This document shows positions 8,047 to 32,153 of a stretch of 33,485 bases of DNA, in pieces. A program made the position numbers and the translations under genes. How positions within the stretch are numbered: the stretch's first letter is position 1; the number at the start of each line of letters is the position of its first letter. Source of the stretch: Clostridiales bacterium (GTDB lineage Bacteria; Bacillota; Clostridia; Oscillospirales; Oscillospiraceae); contig JAJQBL010000083.1 of assembly GCA_021203325.1 (NCBI GenBank), positions 1-33,485 on the forward strand. The letters run 5' to 3'. Under the pieces are notes generated by a model. It did not search any database. It saw only the letters and a list, made by a program, of their open reading frames with translations, and was not told the origin of the DNA.

Positions 8047-8451
8047 GGAATGTTATCAACCTGAGATACAATCTATCCTGAGTTGAGGAGCATAGCATAG
8101 CCTTACAGTCAGATGTCCACGACCAAAGGATAACAAAATTGACGCCCGTTCCGCCGAAGGCAGGAACGTGGCGGCAATCCCCGCCAGCCGCCATCGGCGG
8201 CAGCTTTGGTGCGTGTAAAGTTACATCGTCTCTGGCGGGATAGACCACGTATGGGGTGGATAGCGCGAAGCCCCAGCGGAACAGGAGAGGGATTCTTAAG
8301 GGGGAGCGAGGCCCCGAGCTTCCCCTTAAGCCGCCCTCTTTCCCCCATTTCTCGGCGGAGCAAGAAATGGGGCCCCCGGAGGGAAAGAACGTATTTCCTT
8401 CATCAACCCTTGTCTAAGGAAAACATTCTCCTTAAATTTGCCGTTACCCTG
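8047..8451. repeat. Dispersed structured intergenic repeat, copy A (most conserved core about 8185-8440)
   Basis: Extended similarity to 31736-32101: CCATCGGCGGCAGCTTTGGTGC, AAGTTACATCGTCTCT, ATAGACCAC, GATTCTTAAG, TTTCCCCCATTTCT.GGCGGAGCAAGAAATGGGGCCCCCGGAGGGAAA, CCTTGTCTAAGGA. Confidence 0.88.
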
Positions 8452-8498
8452 AAAGCCGGTAGCCGCCGCGCAGCTGCGCGGCGGCTACCGGCTTTCAG
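8449..8498. repeat. Perfect 50-bp palindrome downstream of the P-type ATPase gene
   Basis: CTGAAAGCCGGTAGCCGCCGCGCAGCTGCGCGGCGGCTACCGGCTTTCAG equals its own reverse complement. Confidence 0.95.
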
Positions 8499-10754: not shown

Positions 10755-10893
10755 GGGGGAAATGAAAAAAATCACGGAAATCAAGTTTTCGGGCAAACAT
10801 ACCAGAGAACCCCTCCGGCTGGCCCTTCCCCCCTCAGTCAGCCTCACTGACAGCAATCCTTTCAGGGCAATGTTATTAACTTAAGGGAGCGCA

Positions 10894-11097
10894 CCCTCCA
10901 CCGGCTGCCGCCGGTCCCCCTCCCCTTTCAGGTGAGGAAAAAGGTTGTTGTAACCGCTATGTCATTGGCTCCCATGAAAGGGTAGGGAGCGCAGCGGAAA
11001 TGCCGCCTGACGGCGGAGCTGTCGGCGTAGCCGACTGAGGGGTGGAAGCGCCGGAAATGCCGCTTGACGGCGGAGGGCGGCGGCAGCCGGTGGAGGG
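10894..11097. repeat. About 204-bp intergenic cassette bounded by perfect 20-bp inverted repeats
   Basis: CCCTCCACCGGCTGCCGCCG (10894-10913) and CGGCGGCAGCCGGTGGAGGG (11078-11097); internal near-identical 24-mers CGGAAATGCCGCYTGACGGCGGAG at 10995 and 11052. Confidence 0.85.
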
Positions 11098-31735: not shown

Positions 31736-32101
31736 GCAACGTCATCAATTTGAGGATCAAATTTTGCTTTCCCAAAGAAAGATGCGTTTCCGCATTAAAA
31801 ATCAGATTAGCACGAACAATGGAAAACCAGAAAGTTCCCCAGCCTCCATCGGCGGCAGCTTTGGTGCCTTTCAAGTTACATCGTCTCTAGCGGAATAGAC
31901 CACCTATAGATTGGATAGTGCAAAGCCCAGCGGGATACGGGGAGATTCTTAAGAGGGGGGCCACAGGTCCCCCTCTTAAGCCGCCTTCTTTCCCCCATTT
32001 CTTGGCGGAGCAAGAAATGGGGCCCCCGGAGGGAAACCACCTGTTTCCTTTCTCAATCCTTGTCTAAGGAGAGAAACCTCTCAAAATTGACACCATTCCC
32101 C
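31736..32101. repeat. Dispersed structured intergenic repeat, copy B (core about 31837-32092)
   Basis: Direct repeat of 8047-8451 in the same orientation; see copy A. Confidence 0.88.
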
Positions 32102-32103
32102 GT

Positions 32104-32153
32104 AAAAAAGCGCTGCCATGAGGAACAACGCCCCATGGCAGCGCATTTTTTTT
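32104..32153. terminator. Bidirectional rho-independent terminator (birA side)
   Basis: GCGCTGCCATG ... CATGGCAGCGC flanked by AAAAAA and ATTTTTTTT. Confidence 0.9.

Follow-up and report, generated by a model that had tools for sequence, protein, structure and literature searches.

The window analysed here, a stretch of 33,485 nucleotides from a Clostridiales draft genome (GCA_021203325.1, contig JAJQBL010000083.1), carries two similar intergenic sequences, here named copy A and copy B. Two questions arise from them, namely what kind of element they represent and whether the fold that they share acts as RNA or as DNA. An earlier note on this DNA had described a repeat of about 250 bp at two sites in the same orientation. 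This was borne out, since positions 31839-32070 are 83% identical to copy A on the same strand. However, the repeat is not restricted to two copies. A DNA search revealed at least 40 near-full-length copies with 77-89% identity in the 2.57-Mb draft genome of the organism itself, and at least 19 copies in each of the sister species G002, G004, G017, G018 and G021. Most other genomes of the genus sample contained zero copies. Matches above 60 bits numbered 50 in G000 and 53 in G004 within 1.3 Mb of stretches taken from both, a sample partly picked for holding copies, so that its density does not stand for a genome average. Many contigs end within copies of the element.

The extent first given for copy A (8185-8440) proved too short, as conserved sequence and inverted ends reach approximately 8048-8448 in copy A and 31737-32098 in copy B (Table 1). 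Complete elements are about 400 bp in size and terminate in 17-bp inverted repeats (AATGTCATCAACTTAAG). When copies were aligned together with their flanks, the 5' end GGCAATGTCATCAACTTAAG proved to be conserved, and its inverse was present at the 3' end.

Table 1. Features of copies A and B in the window (S1, S2: stems; a, b: first and second strand; L1: first loop)
Feature	Position	Strand	Basis or remark
Element, copy A; about 400 bp, MITE-like, without an ORF of its own	8048..8448	+	ends by comparison with other copies
Left terminal inverted repeat, copy A, AATGTTATCAACCTGAG	8049..8065	+	family consensus AATGTCATCAACTTAAG
Right terminal inverted repeat, copy A, degenerate, CTTAAATTTGCCGTTAC on the + strand	8431..8447	-	compared with intact ends
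Conserved core, copy A	8186..8420	+	nhmmer, 250.7 bits
Hairpin H1, copy A, CTTAAGGGG..CCCCTTAAG	8295..8330	+	fold and covariation across 90 distinct segments
Pseudoknot strand S1a, CCGCC, predicted to pair with 8354-8358	8331..8335	+	compensatory TCGCC/GGCGA, TCGTC/GACGA
Third strand L1, CTCTTT (Y1 + TCTTT), proposed parallel triplex with 8362-8367	8336..8341	+	Y1-Y2-R covariation; position-2 triple change in L226
Hairpin H2 / stem S2, 8343-8353 with 8362-8372	8343..8372	+	sequence and covariation
Loop strand S1b, GGCGG	8354..8358	+	
Element, copy B; about 360 bp, MITE-like	31737..32098	+	sequence and comparison with other copies
Left terminal inverted repeat, copy B, AACGTCATCAATTTGAG	31738..31754	+	
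Conserved core, copy B	31841..32070	+	nhmmer, 226.8 bits
Hairpin H1, copy B, CTTAAGAGGGGG..CCCCCTCTTAAG	31948..31980	+	
Predicted pseudoknot/triplex, copy B: S1a 31981-31985, L1 31986-31991, S2 31993-32003 with 32012-32022, S1b 32004-32008	31981..32022	+	sequence; T-T-A class

In total, 28 elements with an inverted repeat at both termini were found, ranging in size from 215 to 1334 bp. Flanks resembling target duplications, scored as best-match lengths of 7-11 bp, were present in 12 of the 28 compared to 1.5 expected (300 flank shuffles, maximum 5). Perfect 10-bp duplications were AAGTCAAGGG, TGTGCAGGAT and CCTTTCAGGG. The other 16 elements lacked a good target duplication, and a clear one was found at neither copy A nor copy B. 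Comparison with sister species revealed empty sites for some elements. One of these lies in the window at about 27603, where the sister genome G004 contains a full two-ended element (L186 4409-5013). Additionally, several differing interiors carry ends of the AATGTCATCAACTTAAG type, as is usual where a single transposase mobilises a set of MITEs.

The IS4 subgroup of the IS4 family has been characterized by the ends '-AATR--------WTW----' and direct repeats of 10-13 bp (PMC2266710). The ends on both sides of the 28 elements fit this pattern and the duplication length matches as well, and we regard the assignment of the A/B repeats to a MITE-like family with IS4-subgroup ends as well supported by these sequence features. 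An autonomous IS4-type transposase sharing the ends was not found in the genus sample of draft genomes. Transposases of PF01609 (DDE_Tnp_1) were considered as a source, and none of their 29 matches in the genus sample had these ends. Since the genomes are drafts and no transposase matched, membership in the IS4 subgroup is judged from the ends only. Mobilisation in trans by an IS4-type transposase is nevertheless what the ends suggest. The 1334-bp stretch between terminal repeats (G004 L114) contains a gene whose translation looks peptidoglycan-binding or hydrolase-like and not like a transposase. The element was not matched in plasmid and phage collections.

The earlier note had left open whether the repeat is an ncRNA or a MITE. 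Inverted ends, target duplications, empty sites, the intergenic position and the lack of an ORF speak for a MITE; evidence for a stand-alone ncRNA gene was not found. The copies are also more than decayed transposon ends, since the conserved core lies in the interior of the element. The MITEs and mobile insertion cassettes of the IS4 subgroup (De Palmenaer et al. 2008, PMC2266710) resemble the A/B family in the end pattern, in perfect 10-bp duplications and in several interiors behind common ends. In contrast to these, the interior described here is a long covarying fold, and the copies form mosaics and head-to-head pairs.

The copies are mosaic and unstable, and each module occurs in alternative versions which reassort among them. 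Six head-to-head pairs with 228-247 bp between the cores were present in the G000/G004 sample. The rmuC/birA gap holds differently oriented or deleted versions in G000, G018, G004 and G002 and none in G044.

Some further observations concern the composition of the copies. The spacer of the head-to-head pairs is conserved and contains an A/T-rich inverted repeat, AAAAAACGTGATTATCCATTGCTTTTTT (e.g. L155 12132-12372). Short structured inserts such as TAGGGAGCGAAGCGGAAATGCCGCTTGACGG were located in hairpin loops of the element (L122 560-1320, L161 3230-3940, L186 4300-5150), indicating that elements are nested. A module of about 50 bp at the 3' end of the core is tandemly repeated in some copies. 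At about 10869-11080 of the window a further repeat family was found which shares the end, AATGTTATTAACTTAAG, and differs in its interior (CACCCTCCACCGGCTGCCGCCGG...CCCTTTCAGG). Elsewhere, this family is about 215 bp in size (G004 L174, L185, L187).

Regarding the fold of the core, stem 1 of the earlier note was recovered exactly (8295-8303/8322-8330 in copy A, 31948-31959/31969-31980 in copy B), and stem 2 with its GGCGGAGCA loop is likewise present in both copies. Single-strand folds of the copies beat shuffled sequences with z values of -4.1 and -3.0. H1 was counted pair by pair, since its length classes were not brought into register when 50 cores aligned with MAFFT were analysed by RNAalifold. 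Across 90 distinct segments H1 contained 1029 Watson-Crick, 84 G.U and 4 A.C pairs, with compensatory pair types at several positions. A single position common to many copies accounts for about half of the G.U pairs; with it left out, 38 G.U are found versus 4 A.C. From a DNA process that treats both strands alike, comparable numbers of the two would be expected, so that RNA of the written strand is probably the acting molecule.

Stem 2 is part of a more complex arrangement. The order of strands is S1a (CCGCC), L1 (YTCTTT(T)), S2a, S1b (GGCGG, in the loop), L3 (AGC) and S2b. The loop GGCGG is complementary to the upstream CCGCC, and the intervening YTCTTT matches the purine strand of S2 in the manner of a triple helix. 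This motif could be parsed in 129 of 134 distinct copies. At the positions Y1 (L1), Y2 (S2a) and R (S2b) the combination C-C-G occurred 67 times and T-T-A 60 times. Copy A is one of the two exceptions; its S2 has a single mismatch, C.A, at 8353/8362, the pair closest to the loop. The association was found in both stem classes, CCCCAT and GCTAC (Fisher 1e-23 and 2e-12, values which overstate independence because the copies are related). Independent changes therefore matter more. In one copy (L226) the next position is altered in all three strands (TCCTTT / TTTCCT / AGGAAA), and S1 carries the compensatory variants TCGCC/GGCGA and TCGTC/GACGA alongside CCGCC/GGCGG. In an alignment of 17 sequences across taxa the crossing structure was 99.3% paired, with a covariation of 0.417 compared to 0.144 for shuffled and at most 0.143 for slid structures.

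Covariation of three strands and of S1 would be expected of an H-type pseudoknot in which L1 occupies the S2 major groove. Judged by these substitution patterns, there is good support for a covarying pseudoknot and a third strand that matches it, and a triplex is predicted to form. Selection on a folded nucleic acid, as proposed before, thus gains more support than the earlier note could discern, with stems 1 and 2 covarying in more than 100 copies and stem 2 forming a predicted base-triple pseudoknot. Three-strand covariation is rare evidence for tertiary structure obtained from sequences. G.U exceeded A.C in S1 (8 versus 2); this excess was absent in S2 (1 versus 5). Points against the proposed fold are that an L3 of 3 nt is tight for the 5-bp S1 and that C+.G-C triples require protonation. 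Near its 3' end, for instance at 8395-8421 of the window, the core has the sequence TTTCCTT...CCTTGTCTAAGGAAA, which may represent a second, shorter third-strand hairpin.

Related folds were found in other taxa. G030, a member of another family, contains a different dispersed repeat which has the H1 leader in common and the fold CGCGC / TTTTT / GCGCG / AGC / AAAAA. With a covariance model of S2, matches were obtained for 43 of the 297 genomes and 35 of the 148 genera sampled in this order, frequently as multiple copies. Some weak matches near the threshold will be due to chance. Both pairing rules were obeyed in other genera, as in GCGCC|CTTTTTT|..|GGCGC|..|GAAAAAA and ACGC|CTTCTTT|..|GCGT|..|GAAGAAA, and S1 pairs there comprised GCGCC/GGCGC, CCGGC/GCCGG and TCGGC/GCTGA. 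Some families kept the third strand and lacked S1. In out-of-sample genera the third strand and the loop of a family fitted that family better than did the corresponding parts of other families, and none of 2000 shuffles reached the observed fit for either feature. This result is supportive only, since the parse was crude, extended stem ends greedily and included four loci in both strand readings.

The exact hairpin pattern was also present in Herbaspirillum, Pseudorhodoferax, Thiobacillus and Chitinibacter. The pseudoknot of these Betaproteobacteria is nearly identical, and flanking bases beyond the search pattern agree too. Its recurrence across phyla could reflect either homology or convergence. 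The pseudoknot pattern was not matched in IMG/VR, and the Herbaspirillum form gave one weak match, to a Variovorax plasmid, in the plasmid and phage collections. Rfam, which the earlier note had suggested consulting, contained no family matching at gathering score, and a permissive search gave only sub-threshold chance matches.

Copy A is located between convergent genes for a C_GCAxxG_C_C protein and a heavy-metal P-type ATPase, copy B between those for RmuC and BirA. The convergent setting noted earlier is thus correct for these two copies but is no trait of the family. Tandem genes flanked 41 of 67 placeable copies, convergent genes 15 and divergent genes 11, a distribution close to that of ordinary gaps above 100 bp (277, 72 and 96, respectively; gene calls by a simple codon-usage script). 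Without a convergent bias, the setting of copies A and B is incidental. Only 1 of 92 copies was found inside a predicted ORF. In tandem gaps 26 copies lie along the gene direction and 15 against it, and with a placement this inconsistent relative to genes a role in cis is not evident. Separate perfect or near-perfect hairpins adjoin both copies (8449-8498 and 32104-32150), and these are probably the terminators of the convergent genes.

We favour, with a probability of roughly 0.55, the following explanation. The repeats would be non-autonomous MITE-like elements with IS4-subgroup ends which are spread by a transposase acting in trans. Each copy would hold a strand-specific folded core of H1 followed by the H-type pseudoknot (S1 CCGCC/GGCGG; S2), in which YTCTTT(T), the first loop, would occupy the S2 major groove as the third strand of a triple helix of U.A-U and C+.G-C triples. 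The core would act mainly as RNA, within transcripts that read through the element. More speculatively, and with low confidence, the compact knot could resist nucleases and polymerases and thereby insulate or protect such transcripts, making insertions tolerable. RNA is favoured over single-stranded DNA as the acting molecule because G.U far exceeds A.C in H1 (84 versus 4). The main rival assigns the function to DNA: the core would be selected as an intrastrand pyrimidine triplex or cruciform, or persist because it forms one, in single strands at replication or transposition. Template switching and rearrangement would be promoted in this way, which has been argued for the TMECO repeats (PMC4666352). 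Single-stranded DNA could also adopt S2 and the triplex, and third-strand matching is valid there too. The rearrangement of copies between species at one site, the head-to-head pairs, the module swaps and the broken assemblies would suit such a process, as would a placement indifferent to gene direction, and triplex repeats are tied to instability in E. coli (PMC4666352). However, G.U strongly outnumbers A.C in both H1 and S1 when one strand is read, which is unexpected for a strand-symmetric DNA process, and S1 and S2 together make an H-type pseudoknot, which is a typical RNA arrangement. We consider this rival unlikely, yet to be taken seriously.

If each copy were instead a mobile ncRNA gene with its own promoter and a structured, trans-acting product, the several covarying modules over about 240 nt and the nearly identical pseudoknot in distant taxa would be expected. 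Against this, a conserved promoter was not seen by eye, ends, spacing and pairing arrangement differ among copies, an Rfam match is absent and no partner protein was found, which renders this model improbable. Quasi-palindrome correction is a known mechanism in bacteria, and such template switching together with copying might keep the arms complementary without any selection, the covariation then being mutational. The copies are related and the stem variants fall into few classes, as this would predict, but the matching changes in the third strand and in the crossing S1 are left unexplained, as is the G.U/A.C asymmetry; this reading is already disfavoured and very improbable. Hardly any weight is given to the hairpins being transcription terminators carried by the element. 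They are strong, GC-rich and situated in intergenic gaps, but in copies A and B neither H1 nor H2 is followed by a U run, whichever strand is read, the gaps already contain the separate terminator-like hairpins, and the family has no preference for convergent gaps.

Telomerase RNA, SAM-II and preQ1-II are H-type pseudoknots with major-groove triples. The topology predicted here, S1a-L1-S2a-S1b-L3-S2b with L1 as a pyrimidine strand in the S2 major groove, is the same, and the crossing helices S1 and S2 are backed by compensatory changes. In contrast, the A/B family is a dispersed mobile repeat that is not known to have a ligand or protein partner and has no demonstrated sequence relation to these RNAs. 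Type III toxin-antitoxin RNAs, which are tandem pseudoknots beside a toxin gene, were considered as relatives and set aside; each element has one pseudoknot, and no toxin gene adjoins copy A or copy B.

The TMECO / ITxF intrastrand triplex repeats (Holder et al. 2015, PMC4666352) are similar in being dispersed, intergenic and strand-indifferent and in having three triplex-capable strands. Three compatible sequence blocks in a dispersed repeat were found in the A/B family as well. TMECO is a G-rich purine-motif triplex which was not found on mobile elements and for which no loop pseudoknot is mentioned (PMC4666352). The A/B family, in contrast, has a pyrimidine motif with S1 pairing inside an element with terminal inverted repeats, and its loop of 8 nt is longer than the 6 nt allowed in the ITxF search (PMC4666352). 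By these differences in motif, mobility and pseudoknot it is a variant rather than a member.

BOX, RUP, ERIC and Correia are small non-autonomous structured intergenic repeats. To our knowledge, a triplex pseudoknot has not been described for any of them, and they differ from the A/B family in ends, sequence and host group. They have been listed as small repeats (PMC3110155). BRE, the Beta-proteobacterial repeat element, is a dispersed element with a tandem-prone unit of about 90 bp (PMC3110155). Compared here by description, BRE shares its host group with the betaproteobacterial pseudoknot.

MITEs of bacteria are as a rule regarded as inert debris, and the interior of one family here displays three-strand covariation. 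We tentatively put forward as possible that the triple-helix pseudoknot of about 45 nt defines a new class of mobile structured RNA, residing on unrelated dispersed elements in many Clostridia and, hardly altered, in Betaproteobacteria, and selected as RNA via a conserved cellular factor; its novelty is judged within the open-access literature and Rfam. The three-strand covariation and the recurrence of the fold on other repeats in distant bacteria make a clear and cheap test of RNA versus DNA possible for triple-helix pseudoknots. Annotators would gain a name for many unexplained intergenic repeats of gut Clostridia and soil Betaproteobacteria. In the Betaproteobacteria, dispersed multi-hairpin repeats without an Rfam match were also observed around GCCGCCTTCTTTTGCTTACTTTTCTTGGCGGAGCAAGAAAAGTGAGC (L217, L222, L240, L251, L254 and L288).
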